DNA of 64,000 nucleotides from Shinella granuli. GTDB lineage: Bacteria; Pseudomonadota; Alphaproteobacteria; Rhizobiales; Rhizobiaceae. The notes under the pieces were generated by a model. It did not search any database. It worked only from the letters and a program-made list of their open reading frames with translations, and was not told where the DNA came from. Made by a program: the position numbers and the translations under genes. Shown here in pieces: positions 3,146 through 55,499 of this stretch. The DNA is taken from positions 1 to 64,000 of the forward strand of contig NZ_SLVX01000007.1 in the NCBI RefSeq assembly GCF_004341885.1, read 5' to 3'. Positions within the stretch are counted from its first letter, which is position 1; every line of letters begins with the position of its first letter.

Positions 3146-5206
3146 TCAGGCGGCGAGGCCCTTCTTTTCCAGCATGGCCTCCGGGCTCGGCAGCTTGCCG
3201 CGGAAGGCCTTGTAGGCGTCTTCCGGATCGACCGAGCCGCCGACGGCGTAGATATAGGTCTTCAGCCGCGCGGCCATGGCCGGGTCGAAGGCATCACCTG
3301 TCTCGGTGAAGGCGGCGAAGGCGTCGGCGTCGAGCACCTCCGACCACATGTAGGAATAGTAGCCCGCCGAATAGCCGTCGCCGGAGAAGACGTGCTGGAA
3401 ATGCGGCGTGGCGTGGCGCATGACGATGGATGCCGGCAGGCCGATCGTTTCCAGCACCTCCTGCTGCACCGCCATCGGGTCCTCGACGGCGCCGCGCGTG
3501 TGGAAGGCCATGTCGACCAGGGCGGAGGATGTGAACTCCACCGTCGCGAAACCGGAATTGAAGGTGTGGGCGGCGAGCACCTTGTCGAGCAGCGCCGCGG
3601 GCATCGCCTCGCCGGTCTGGTAGTGCACCGCATAGCGCGTCAGGATCTCCGGCACGGTAAGCCAGTGCTCGTAGAGCTGCGAGGGCAGTTCGACGAAATC
3701 GCGCGCGACGCCGGTGCCCGAGACCGAGGGGTAGGTGACGTCGGAGAGCATGCCGTGCAGGGCATGGCCGAATTCATGGAAGAGCGTGCGCGCATCGTCG
3801 AGCGAAAGCAGCGCCGGCTTGCCTTCGGCAGGCTTGGCGAAGTTGCAGACATTGTAGATGATCGGCAGTTCGCCGACCGTGCCGTTCTTGAGCGGCAGGC
3901 GGTGCTGGCTCTGGTAGGAGCTCATCCACGCGCCCGAACGCTTGGAGGCGCGGGCGAAGTAGTCGCCGAGGAACATGGCGACAAGCCGGTCGTCGCGGTC
4001 GCGGACCTCGAAGACGCGGACATCGGGGTGATAGACCGGCACGCCGGTCTTCTCGACGGCGCGGATGCCGAACAGCCGCCCGGCGACGTCGAAGCAGGCG
4101 TCGATGATCTTTTCCAGTTGCAGATAGGGCTTCAGCTCCGCCTCGGAGAAGCTGAACTTCTTCGCGCGCAGTTTTTCGGCATGATAGCGCCAGTCCCAGG
4201 GCATGACCGCATGGTTGTGGCCTTCCTCAGCGGCGAGGGCGGCGAGTTCCGCCTCTTCCTCGCGCGCCCGCGCCACGGCCTTTTCCCAGACCTGCATCAA
4301 GAGGCCGTTCACCGCCTCCGGCGTCTTGGCCATGGTGTTGTCGAGTTTCAGCGCGGCGAAATTCGTATAGCCGAGCAGGCCGGCCTTTTCGGCGCGCAGC
4401 GCCAGCGTCTCCCTGACGATGCCGCGATTGTCCGTCTCACCATCGTTCTCGCCCCGCGCCACCCAGGCGCGAAAGGCCTGTTCGCGCAGGTCCCGGCGGG
4501 CGGAGAAGGTGAGGAAGGGCTCAATGATCGAGCGCGACAGCGTGACGGCGAAGCGGCCGTCCTCGCCGCGTTCGCGGGCCGCGGCGGCCATGGCGTCCTT
4601 CAGGAAGTCCGGCAGGCCGTCGAGCGCATCGCCCTCGTCGAGCAGGAGCGCCCAGTTCTTCTCGTCGGCCAGCACGTTCTGGCCGAATTTCGCGCCGAGC
4701 CCGGCCAGCGTCTCGTTGATCGCGGCGAGCCGGTCCTGTTCCGGCTTTGCCAGCCTGGCGCCGGACTTGACGAAGCCCTTCCAGTGCCGCTCCAGCACGC
4801 GGGTCTGTTCCAGCGAGAGGTTCAGCGTCTCGCGGGCCTCCCAGAGCGCGTCGATACGGGCGAAGAGCGCGGCATTGGTGCCGATCTTCGAATAGTGCCG
4901 CGACATCTTTGGCGCGATGTCGCGTTCCAGGGCCTGGATCGTGTCGTTGGTGTTGGCGCCGGCCCGGCTCCAGAAGAGCGCGGAGACTCGGGAGAGTTCG
5001 TCGCCGGCAATTTCGAGCGCGGCGATCGTGTTGTCGAAGGTCGCGGGCTCCGGATTGCCGGCGATGGCGTCGATCTCCGCCTCGTGCGCGGCGAGCGCGG
5101 CGGCAAACCCGTCCGCGAAGGCGTCGTCCTTCACGAGATCGAAACGCGGCAGGCCGTTGAGGCCGGTCCACTCGACGAGGGCGGGATCGATGCGCGTTTC
5201 GGTCAT
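3146..5206 (-). CDS. dcp: M3 family zinc oligopeptidase (peptidyl-dipeptidase Dcp-like)
   Basis: Cytoplasmic zinc metallopeptidase that degrades short peptides. The 686-residue length fits the M3A family. The zinc site HEFGH is at residues 477-481 within TLFHEFGHALHG, with the downstream RDFVELPSQ block and the C-terminal GYYSYMWSEVL block containing the conserved tyrosines. The RDFVE form and the C-terminal region look more like peptidyl-dipeptidase Dcp than oligopeptidase A (PrlC), but activity cannot be settled from sequence. It converges with the ccm operon and diverges from the TerC gene. A long plus-strand frame lies antisense to it and is a shadow. Confidence 0.9.
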   Translation of the reverse strand: MTETRIDPALVEWTGLNGLPRFDLVKDDAFADGFAAALAAHEAEIDAIAGNPEPATFDNTIAALEIAGDELSRVSALFWSRAGANTNDTIQALERDIAPKMSRHYSKIGTNAALFARIDALWEARETLNLSLEQTRVLERHWKGFVKSGARLAKPEQDRLAAINETLAGLGAKFGQNVLADEKNWALLLDEGDALDGLPDFLKDAMAAAARERGEDGRFAVTLSRSIIEPFLTFSARRDLREQAFRAWVARGENDGETDNRGIVRETLALRAEKAGLLGYTNFAALKLDNTMAKTPEAVNGLLMQVWEKAVARAREEEAELAALAAEEGHNHAVMPWDWRYHAEKLRAKKFSFSEAELKPYLQLEKIIDACFDVAGRLFGIRAVEKTGVPVYHPDVRVFEVRDRDDRLVAMFLGDYFARASKRSGAWMSSYQSQHRLPLKNGTVGELPIIYNVCNFAKPAEGKPALLSLDDARTLFHEFGHALHGMLSDVTYPSVSGTGVARDFVELPSQLYEHWLTVPEILTRYAVHYQTGEAMPAALLDKVLAAHTFNSGFATVEFTSSALVDMAFHTRGAVEDPMAVQQEVLETIGLPASIVMRHATPHFQHVFSGDGYSAGYYSYMWSEVLDADAFAAFTETGDAFDPAMAARLKTYIYAVGGSVDPEDAYKAFRGKLPSPEAMLEKKGLAA

Positions 5207-5295
5207 GGGAGTCTGGTCCTTTCTGGCAAATCAGCGTGCGGCGAATATAGGAATGGAGGAGGGCTTTGGTACAGGGCGGCCGCGCAAAATAGACG

Positions 5296-5320
5296 GGAAC
5301 CGCTGGGCGATCACGGCGTT
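5296..5320 (+). promoter_or_regulatory. Candidate EcfG (RpoE2-type) promoter upstream of the TerC gene
   Basis: GGAAC at 5296-5300 is followed after exactly 16 bases by CGTT at 5317-5320. This matches the alphaproteobacterial general-stress sigma consensus (GGAAC-N16/17-CGTT). Transcription from it would give a leader of roughly 260 nt before the ATG at 5590. The match is seen directly; use by an EcfG sigma factor is inferred. Confidence 0.55.
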
Positions 5321-5418
5321 AGGGCACGAGCGGCGGCCCGCCTCTTGACGCGGAGGGCAACTTCGGTGAAAAGATGGCCATCCGCGGCCTTTGACATCGG
5401 GTTGCCGCGGTGAACCTT

Positions 5419-5491
5419 GGTGCCGGGCCCCTCTGGCGAGAGTTTTTACGGCGCTCTCGTGATGTCGGTACCGCCAGCAATTAGCCGGCGG
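5419..5491 (+). promoter_or_regulatory. Structured 5' leader of the TerC-family gene (riboswitch-like)
   Basis: Two nested stems are visible: an outer one, GGTGCCG (5419-5425) with CGGTACC (5466-5472), and an inner one, GCGAGAG (5436-5442) with CTCTCGT (5454-5460). A third stem, CCGCC (5471-5475) with GGCGG (5486-5490), shares bases 5471-5472 with the outer stem, so the two are mutually exclusive. An intrinsic terminator follows at 5529-5555. This layout of aptamer-like fold, switching stem and terminator is what an attenuator or riboswitch looks like. TerC/YkoY genes in other bacteria are often under Mn2+ riboswitches, but I could not match the yybP-ykoY consensus. I recall a separately described terC RNA motif in proteobacteria; whether this is one needs a covariance search. 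Confidence 0.5.
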
Positions 5492-5528
5492 ATTCATACG
5501 CACATGAACATCCTGACCATGCCTGACC

Positions 5529-5555
5529 CGCATGCCCTTCGCGGTATGCGTTTTT
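5529..5555 (+). terminator. Intrinsic terminator inside the TerC leader
   Basis: CGCATGCC (5529-5536), a six-base loop, then GGTATGCG (5543-5550) and TTTTT. The stem is eight pairs with one G-T wobble. It lies only 35 bases upstream of the TerC ATG and downstream of the structured leader, so it would end transcription before the gene unless read through. Confidence 0.6.
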
Positions 5556-5589
5556 CGCTTTCCCGTACCTCCAGCATGGAGGCGCTGTC

Positions 5590-6708
5590 ATGATCGGCAA
5601 CGGCGAAGGCAAATCCACCCTTTCCTACCTGAAGTGGGCGTTCATCTTCACCGCCATCGGCCTGGTGCTCGGCGCCTGGCTCGGCTGGCAGACGACCGGA
5701 ACGCTTTCCGGCATGGCGACCGTCTTCTTCATCTGCGCCGTGCTTGCGGTGCTGGAGATCTCGCTCTCCTTCGACAACGCCATCGTCAATGCGAACAAGC
5801 TGAAGGACATGACGCCGGTGTGGCAGCACCGCTTCCTGACCTGGGGCATCATCATCGCCGTCTTCGGCATGCGCATCGTCTTCCCGCTGCTGATCGTGGT
5901 GATCGCGGCCCGCATCGGCCCGTTCGAGGCGATCCTGCTGGCGGCCCGCGAGCCGGCGGAATATGCCCGCATCATGAACGACGCGCATCTGCCGATCGCT
6001 GCCTTTGGCGGCACCTTCCTGATGATGGTCGGCCTTACCTACTTCTTCAACCATGAGAAGGACGTGCACTGGATCGGCTTCATCGAGAAGCACATGGCCC
6101 GCTCGGCCACCGTCAAGGGCATCGAGATCGCCTTCGTGCTGCTGCTGATCCTGGTCTTCTCGAACCTGCTTGAGGGCGAGGACGCCAACACCTTCGTCTT
6201 CTCCGCCATCTACGGCCTCCTGACCTTCCTTGCGGTGGAAGTCGTCGGCGGCCTGCTCGATGCCTCGCAGAAGGCGATGTCGGAAGCGGCCAAGGGCGGC
6301 CTCGGCGCCTTCATCTACCTGGAAGTGCTCGATGCCAGCTTCTCCTTCGACGGCGTCATCGGCGCCTTCGCGCTGACGCAGAACCTCTTCATCATCGCGA
6401 TCGGCCTCGGCATCGGCGCCATGTATGTGCGCTCGATGACGATCATGCTCGTCGACAAGGGCACGCTGGCCGAATACCGCTACCTGGAGCACGGCGCGTT
6501 CTACGCGATCCTCATCCTCTCGGTGGTCATGTATTGCCAGACGCTGGTGCACATTCCGGAAGTCATCACCGGCCTTGGCGGCGCGACGCTGATCGGCATC
6601 TCGCTCTGGTCGTCGATCCGCTACAACAAGCGGGAACGCGCGCGGGAAATCCATGGCGACCTGCACGGCTCCGACCGCGTGGCGGCCCATCTCGGCGAAC
6701 GCGCCTGA
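5590..6708 (+). CDS. TerC/DUF475 family integral membrane protein
   Basis: A 372-residue polytopic membrane protein of the TerC/DUF475 group. Acidic residues embedded in membrane segments are visible in the repeated motifs LEISLSFDNAIVNA (near residue 55) and LDASFSFDGVIGAFA (near residue 250), the family signature thought to bind or transport metal ions. Members are linked to tellurite resistance or manganese/calcium export; the substrate here is unknown. Position, leader structure and a candidate EcfG promoter point to regulated, stress- or metal-responsive expression. A strong terminator follows at 6719-6750. An earlier overlapping frame (5532) is a shadow. Confidence 0.88.
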   Translation: MIGNGEGKSTLSYLKWAFIFTAIGLVLGAWLGWQTTGTLSGMATVFFICAVLAVLEISLSFDNAIVNANKLKDMTPVWQHRFLTWGIIIAVFGMRIVFPLLIVVIAARIGPFEAILLAAREPAEYARIMNDAHLPIAAFGGTFLMMVGLTYFFNHEKDVHWIGFIEKHMARSATVKGIEIAFVLLLILVFSNLLEGEDANTFVFSAIYGLLTFLAVEVVGGLLDASQKAMSEAAKGGLGAFIYLEVLDASFSFDGVIGAFALTQNLFIIAIGLGIGAMYVRSMTIMLVDKGTLAEYRYLEHGAFYAILILSVVMYCQTLVHIPEVITGLGGATLIGISLWSSIRYNKRERAREIHGDLHGSDRVAAHLGERA

Positions 6709-55300: not shown

Positions 55301-55350
55301 CCGCGCCTCCTTGCTGTTCACAAAACGGGAGTAGGGCGCTGGATGTGCCG

Positions 55351-55446
55351 TCTAATCCCTCCGCCGGTACGAGCCGGATCAGGTTCTTCGGGTTGGCGAA
55401 ACCGCCTCTCAGCCAGCGGATCGAAACCCGCGGGCACCCCGTTAGA
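55351..55446 (-). ncRNA. TPP riboswitch (THI element) controlling thiBPQ
   Basis: Read on the minus strand the conserved blocks appear in order: GGGGTGCC (55440-55433), CTGAGAGG (55412-55405), ACCCGAAGAACCTGATC (about 55393-55377) and the closing GGAGGGA; the ends TCTAA/TTAGA pair to form P1. This is the canonical thiamine pyrophosphate aptamer. It ends about 50 bases before the thiB ATG, with no obvious terminator between, so control is probably at translation initiation. Confidence 0.97.
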
Positions 55447-55499
55447 GCAAGGCAAGGCATAATCCCGCTTGCGGCGGGGCGCAAGAGGGTGGCGGCAAG

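Follow-up and report, generated by a model that had tools for sequence, protein, structure and literature searches.

The locus described here raises the question of what kind of regulatory element precedes a TerC-family gene of Shinella granuli, and by which route it might act on that gene. In the window (i.e., the whole stretch of 64,000 nucleotides analysed), the product of the gene matches the PRK14013-type hypothetical protein of NCBIfam and scores below the cut-offs of the NCBIfam models for Alx, YjbE and YkoY, which are named 'R_switched'; the neighbour on the opposite strand (3146-5206) encodes an M3 peptidase. A first-pass annotation made from the sequence had proposed a structured cis-regulatory leader with competing stems upstream of the TerC gene, possibly an uncharacterised riboswitch class. 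The former proposal is upheld by a match to a known RNA family and by covariation; the latter is not.

The leader contains a terC RNA

A covariance-model search (cmscan, Rfam 15) placed a terC RNA (Rfam RF03067) upstream of the gene with 63.7 bits, against a gathering cut-off of 39.9, and an E-value of 9.4e-9 over the whole window. The match spans the complete model (1-59 of 59), and the window agrees with the conserved strands between P1 and P2, GCCCCUCUG and GAUG, at all positions. The elements concerned are:

5415-5477, plus strand: terC RNA (RF03067), whole model, from the covariance model and covariation
5420-5426/5465-5471, plus strand: P1 of the Rfam model, extendable to 5419/5472
5436-5443/5453-5460, plus strand: P2 of the Rfam model
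5427-5435 and 5461-5464, plus strand: conserved unpaired strands of the Rfam model
5590-6708, plus strand: gene for a DUF475-type membrane protein of the TerC superfamily, 372 aa (Pfam DUF475, 344.6 bits; Pfam TerC, 75.4 bits)

The window element is a member of the known terC RNA family and, because 5415-5477 is a full-length RF03067 member, it does not represent a new class. The annotation had mentioned a terC RNA motif described in proteobacteria, which is the family matched here, and the two nested stems it had drawn are those of the Rfam model: 5419-5425/5466-5472, with seven of seven pairs standard, is P1 shifted by one pair, and 5436-5442/5454-5460 is P2. Rfam types the terC RNA as cis-regulatory, not as a riboswitch, and the literature searched, which did not extend to the founding paper, reports no ligand for it.

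A genome-wide search returned a single terC RNA. The corresponding search for TerC gave five matches at four places (two in the window gene and, at the other places, two strong matches plus one under the cut-off); the other TerC places are thus without a recognisable terC RNA. The window also holds a TPP riboswitch (RF00059) on the minus strand at 55339-55451 (65.9 bits).

Comparative support for the two stems

For comparison we used 284 loci that were covariance-model hits. The aptamers in the fetched loci were located with a fuzzy pattern of the conserved strands (up to three mismatches) rather than with the covariance model, which gave 291 copies in 283 of the 284 loci (L243 is without the pattern) and 287 copies after removal of duplicates. 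The pattern is matched exactly by 247 of the 287; 14 carry two or three mismatches, among which at least L031 and L142 are probably chance matches, and in a few copies (L226, L281) the shortest match truncates the 3' end. The covariation set comprised 380 distinct sequences, namely the copies with at most one mismatch plus copies from named genomes. The latter, which may overlap the genomes of the first set, were selected by exact match to the conserved strands and are therefore uninformative on strand conservation.

When the P2 pairs are numbered upward from the base of the stem, beginning with 0, those at index 3, 4, 5 and 6 prove standard in 93.9, 86.3, 85.3 and 71.8% of these 380 sequences, vs. 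56.2, 40.6, 39.2 and 42.0% after shuffling. Pairs 1-4 of the P1 extension are likewise standard far more often than in shuffled sequences (92.6, 85.8 and 76.8% vs. 56.9, 67.0 and 43.8% for index 1, 2 and 3); index 0 shows a small excess, being paired in just 50.3% vs. 41.6%, and index 5 does not rise above the shuffles. Of the inner P1 pairs, three are invariant and the fourth is almost so, which makes them uninformative for covariation. Hardly any variation is seen in CCGGGCCCCTCTG and GATGTCGG across the 287 copies; the pattern used to find these copies was itself built on the two strands and tolerated up to three mismatches. Judging from the alignment, P1 and P2 are supported by compensatory changes (P2 and P1 extension indices 1-4); that is, the changes whose absence the annotation had named beforehand as a refutation are present in P2 and in most outer P1 pairs. 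Folding energy alone was rejected as proof of structure since that of 5405-5600 is no better than that of shuffles (z -0.15), and the structural support for the leader is comparative, not energetic. All sequences are related whereas the shuffle tests take them as independent, so that counts over leaders are not independent observations.

Two simple ways for the aptamer to reach downstream sequence were rejected. An anti-Shine-Dalgarno role, with CCCCUCUG pairing with the downstream ribosome-binding site, is not borne out by the Alx leaders, where at least seven contiguous complementary bases occur in 1 of the 60 (of 134) with a placeable start vs. 2.0 expected. The full reverse complement of GAUGUCGG as a general switch fails in that form as well, CCGRCAYC being found downstream in 3/242 leaders (1.5 expected). 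The shorter CCGRC, complementary to GUCGG, occurs in 57/127 leaders before Alx genes (20.8 expected) and in 31/31 DUF475 leaders (4.9 expected), and is barely enriched before YjbE (18/51, 12.8 expected) or the rest (16/64, 13.6 expected); we do not rely on this pairing because its probability in the window (5464-5469/5484-5489) is zero to two decimals.

Genes behind terC RNAs and their distribution

A profile search found an ORF of the TerC superfamily behind 217 of the 287 copies (134 Alx-like, 52 YjbE-like and 31 DUF475), the label being that of the best-scoring ORF starting within 600 nt, which is not always the first gene, and 17 copies having no label. The non-TerC targets are DUF4112 (13), Tim44-like (12), TerB-like (9, in three groups), a 103-residue protein (8), diacylglycerol kinase-like (5), ATPase-inhibitor-zeta-like (3, one checked), Zn-ribbon (2) and a 117-residue protein (1); clustering by first ORF instead gives 14 DUF4112 and 9 members of the Zn-ribbon group. 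In a second set of 120, 73 belong to the TerC superfamily and 23 are without a label, several of them since the piece ends. Pfam and NCBIfam also yielded single cases at varying distances (NhaA, P-type cation ATPase, CitMHS, carbonic anhydrase, MnhE, Na/Ca exchanger, Bax1-I, YdjM, HlyD, MarR, DUF533 and DUF2076), which may be chance neighbours, and about ten of the downstream ORFs tested have no Pfam or NCBIfam match. Two copies of the same genus, L057 and L077, have no assigned gene nearby: in L057 an NhaA ORF begins 345 nt downstream of the terC RNA, and in L077 the downstream gene is apparently on the opposite strand and, by eye, ketol-acid reductoisomerase-like.

The terC RNA was found in 83/151 genomes of the window's family, in 98/297 drawn from its order and in 52/385 drawn from its class, with some genomes in more than one draw and with strict filters that may miss weak matches. 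Scanning named genomes by pattern gave at least 119 stretches; among the 80 matches listed, most are from Alphaproteobacteria, six from Pseudomonas and one from Arenimonas. L088 of the family set has its leader in common with Ensifer sesbaniae (L333), and L094 with Rhizobium sp. Leaf453 (L339), which points to Rhizobiaceae as the family. A genome may hold up to five terC RNAs (G303), in several cases before different genes, a pattern more suggestive of a regulon than of a switch for one gene. At L067/L251, L076/L278 and L252, paired terC RNAs stand back to back, 97-133 nt apart and facing outward, an arrangement that could place both of the divergent genes under control.

Predicted promoters of two types

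Upstream of the aptamer in the window lies the following element:

5344-5374, plus strand: predicted sigma70-like promoter, placed by eye (CTTGACG, 5344-5350; -10-like TGAAAAGA, 5367-5374)

From it we infer a transcription start near 5381. In the window copy (L028), CTTG is at -79 of the aptamer CCGG, and a two-block search of the 31 DUF475 leaders, window included, recovered the sigma70-like motif CTTGACG-N16-TAAnTAnA, mostly 70-90 nt upstream. A simple scan of 5150-5700 found no sigma70 promoter by the E. coli consensus.

For leaders outside the DUF475 group, a two-block search (110 of 242 sampled) gave a different motif, CTTGAA-N14/15-CCC[CT]A[TC]NT, which agrees in sequence with the S. meliloti RpoH1 motif, CTTGAA-N15-16-CCTATAT, as given in PMC4843759, and resembles the R. 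etli motif in PMC4167512. It exceeds the 1% threshold in 100/132 held-out leaders, where its -10 ends 9-22 nt before CCGG, and in 0/238 far-upstream controls; the named non-DUF475 loci outside the first set reach it in 63/105 cases, vs. 1 after shuffling. This threshold is passed by the single Arenimonas leader and by none of the six Pseudomonas leaders. By these motif searches, an RpoH (sigma32)-type promoter thus appears to precede most terC RNAs outside the DUF475 group. Within that group the distinction between the two types is blurred, since 19/31 of its leaders reach the RpoH threshold as well if the search covers 110 nt. As for a printed link between terC genes and the RpoH1 pH regulon of S. 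meliloti, word searches led us to reject it for two papers: tellur, terC and alkaline are absent from the main text of PMC2976971, and terC and tellur from the searchable text of PMC3616915, whose sole 'riboswitch' is in the reference list. In the Pseudomonas records (L286, L335, L341, L345, L348 and L356), all with a terC RNA and no RpoH-type score, the P1 extension is in several cases of the GUGAC/GUCAC type.

Additional elements in the DUF475 leaders

The 31 DUF475 leaders (29 from the window's own family) carry more than the aptamer. In the window the additional elements are:

5382-5410, plus strand: upstream hairpin H0, arms 5382-5388/5404-5410, all pairs standard
5393-5398, plus strand: GACATC in the H0 loop, complementary to the aptamer GATGTC (5461-5466)
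5471-5491, plus strand: CCGCC/GGCGG hairpin, competing with P1 for 5471-5472, from standard pairs and the DUF475 leader alignment
5504-5593, plus strand: leader ORF of 29 codons (MNILTMPDPHALRGMRFSLSRTSSMEALS), whose TGA (5591-5593) overlaps the terC ATG (5590-5592)
5529-5555, plus strand: terminator-like hairpin (5529-5550, 8 pairs) and TTTTT (5551-5555), within the leader ORF

Neither H0 nor the leader ORF had been noticed in the first-pass annotation. The alternative stem that it had placed at 5471-5475/5486-5490 does exist, with five standard pairs and, as it had said, two bases (5471-5472) in common with P1; the true coordinates are 5471-5475/5487-5491. In the alignment an almost constant aptamer is followed by CCGCC-N-GCA...GCCGGCGGA; CCGCC is present in 27/31 leaders, GGCGG in 29/31 and both in 26/31, with the position left unpaired in the hairpin differing among leaders. 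The overlap with P1 is just two bases, and in the model a shortened hairpin coexists with P1.

We infer that GGCGG may be the ribosome-binding site of the leader ORF. In 28 leaders, an ATG located 15-19 nt downstream of the first base of GGCGG begins an ORF that runs for 23-41 codons (L134 has no leader ORF, terC beginning directly, and L162 and L173, which have no GGCGG, were excluded from the ORF test). In all 28 testable leaders this ORF stops within 6 nt of the terC start, vs. 5.8 expected from shuffled sequence in a random frame, with terC starts set by ribosome-site score rather than by annotation; a nearer ATG was skipped in L017, L021 and L097, and a first-ATG rule gives stops at the terC start in 25/28. 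The overlap takes the form ATGA in 22/28, 25/28 ATG-to-ATG distances are in one frame despite 13 distinct distances, and codon 6 is Met in 22/28. That is, the stop of the leader ORF at the terC start is kept in relatives.

The eight-pair hairpin with TTTTT before the gene start at 5590 had been seen in the first-pass annotation and is indeed in the sequence. Four terminator-like sites occur in 5150-5700 vs. a shuffle mean of 0.4, two of which (5421 and 5529) are on the plus strand upstream of the gene. All 28 leaders have a hairpin within the leader ORF, an equally good one arising by chance in a mean of 26% of shuffles; the 10 nt behind it contain at least 4 T in 21/28 and at least 5 T in 14/28, so that half of the leaders are poor in T, and hairpin and T count are jointly matched by at most 5% of a leader's own shuffles in 19/28. 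A strong hairpin with a T-rich stretch lies in the same part of the ORF in the window, L004, L005, L022, L024 and others, whose sequences differ; the position of the hairpin in the leader ORF is kept in relatives although its sequence is not.

With regard to H0, a 6-mer complementary to GAUGUC lies between the predicted start and the aptamer in 20/31 leaders (3.6 expected from mononucleotide shuffles) and is absent from 11/31; exact GACATC occurs upstream of the aptamer in 14/31 (0.33 expected on the same basis). The upstream region folds with a mean z of -1.6 relative to mononucleotide shuffles. G[AG]CAT[CT] is enclosed by at least five pairs in 18 of the 19 leaders that have it, with 18 different 5' arms, vs. 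15.0/19 with shuffled flanks. In the window ensemble, both P1 (pair probabilities 0.27-0.32) and GACAUC:GAUGUC (0.34) are populated, and the forced folds, -46.8 and -47.3 kcal/mol, put the aptamer and the alternative 0.5 apart. This balance is not general: the difference ranges from -4.0 to +12.7 kcal/mol in the other 19 comparable leaders, the nested alternative is more than 2 kcal/mol worse than the aptamer fold in 12 of the 20 leaders with the complementary 6-mer, and the free best fold beats both forced folds in 26/31. Forced folds are blind to a loop-loop contact that leaves H0 closed.

Discussion

Taken as one joint reading, we consider it reasonably probable that the leader (5381-5590) is a terC RNA cis-regulator of the DUF475-type TerC gene and that the terC RNA governs translation of the leader ORF, which in turn sets both read-through into terC and its coupled translation. 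Under this model, the formed and probably ligand-bound aptamer would have P1 take 5471-5472 and thereby weaken the CCGCC/GGCGG hairpin, so that ribosomes could initiate at the leader ORF; while translating it, they would prevent the terminator hairpin from forming, and they would then continue or reinitiate at the overlapping terC start. In the ligand-free state, GACAUC in the upstream hairpin could pair with GAUGUC of the aptamer, P1 would open, the GGCGG hairpin would be complete, the leader ORF would stay untranslated and transcription would end at 5551-5555. The ligand-dependent translation of the ORF would make the leader an ON switch; ligand, ON direction, termination and coupling are all putative elements of the model. 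Our best guess for the signal, by analogy, would be Mn2+ or alkaline pH of the cytoplasm, because terC RNA frequently precedes the TerC relative Alx, which has a Mn2+/pH-responsive yybP-ykoY element in E. coli, where the leaders of alx and mntP respond to Mn2+ and alkaline pH (PMC9603457). The guess also draws on the Alx-, YjbE- and DUF475-type genes behind terC RNAs and on the 'R_switched' names of the NCBIfam models. A general envelope-stress signal would likewise fit the broader set of genes and the RpoH-type promoters.

Alternatively, the terC RNA might act on translation only, with the hairpin in the ORF being no terminator, the ORF a coupling device, and the aptamer exposing or hiding GGCGG. 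The poor T-run in half of the leaders (14/28 with at least 5 T in 10) is consistent with this possibility, as is L134, where a similar CGCC/GGCGG stands directly before terC in the absence of a leader ORF. The same applies to the Alx leaders: in 57 of the 60 placeable cases (of 134) the aptamer ends 28-97 nt before the start, so that a terminator would hardly fit in between; these distances are maxima, the start having been set at the last suitable ATG. However, the strong hairpins and T-rich stretches shared by leaders of differing sequence, the window among them, argue for termination, and we regard an effect on translation alone as somewhat unlikely. It is also conceivable that the terC RNA is not a ligand-binding riboswitch but a protein or small-RNA site, or a fold that opens with temperature or pH, at the 5' end of stress (RpoH) transcripts. 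The RpoH-type promoter directly before the aptamer in both the held-out leaders (100/132) and the second set (63/105) points in this direction, together with the varied targets (TerC, DUF4112, Zn-ribbon, Tim44-like, TerB, a single NhaA, P-type ATPase) and the Rfam class of RF03067; yet near-invariant unpaired strands joined to freely changing stems resemble a binding pocket, and the window's group has a different, sigma70-like promoter. We find this explanation unlikely.

A drifted yybP-ykoY Mn2+ riboswitch, finally, would have the superfamily of the downstream gene in common with the present leader, since in E. coli the target of the yybP-ykoY RNA is alx, a gene of the TerC family (PMC9603457). 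The annotation had already remarked that the yybP-ykoY consensus is not visible, and the separate covariance model (RF00080) indeed has no match in 5150-5700 at E-values up to 10 or anywhere in the genome at up to 0.001, whereas the 59-nt two-stem RNA matches RF03067 throughout; this identity was rejected, and we deem it exceedingly improbable.

Returning to the terC RNA leader with a translated ORF, a broader and more tentative idea, possible but not one we would lean on, is that terC RNAs form the 5' ends of an RpoH-driven regulon for envelope and ion homeostasis in Alphaproteobacteria (TerC, DUF4112, TerB, Tim44-like, cation antiporters and ATPases), gated again by a small Mn2+/pH-sensing RNA of a second class. 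The DUF475 branch of the Rhizobiaceae would then have been rebuilt into a three-layer device, in which an upstream anti-aptamer hairpin and the aptamer are joined by a leader ORF that is translated, encloses a terminator and is coupled to terC.

The terC RNA, which reportedly goes back to Weinberg 2017, appears to be an orphan regulatory RNA, and the gene list and RpoH-type promoters described above narrow the search for its signal. The window has the conserved strands, P1, P2 and the place upstream of a TerC-family gene in common with RF03067. However, the Rfam model stops just outside P1 whereas the window's group adds the upstream hairpin, the GGCGG hairpin, the leader ORF and the terminator-like hairpin, and its promoter type is unlike that of most other copies examined. 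A search mostly outside the subscription literature, and without the founding paper, found no paper on the promoter link, leader ORF or upstream hairpin of terC RNA, and we make no claim that these extra features are unpublished.

Trp-type leader-peptide attenuators have a short translated ORF with a terminator hairpin adjoining the regulated gene. The leader ORF of the window is similarly short, contains a terminator-like hairpin and adjoins terC; the proposed control of the ORF is, in contrast, an upstream structured RNA rather than codon-specific stalling, and no regulatory codon run is evident by eye in the leader peptides of the DUF475 group. The DUF475 leaders are a system in which one could test whether an RNA switch acts via a tiny translated ORF holding a terminator. 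A different anti-P1 arrangement may be present in YjbE-type leaders, where GTGGCC lies 10-60 nt 3' of the aptamer in 21/51 (0.6 expected) and could pair with a CCAGGCC-type 5' strand of P1.
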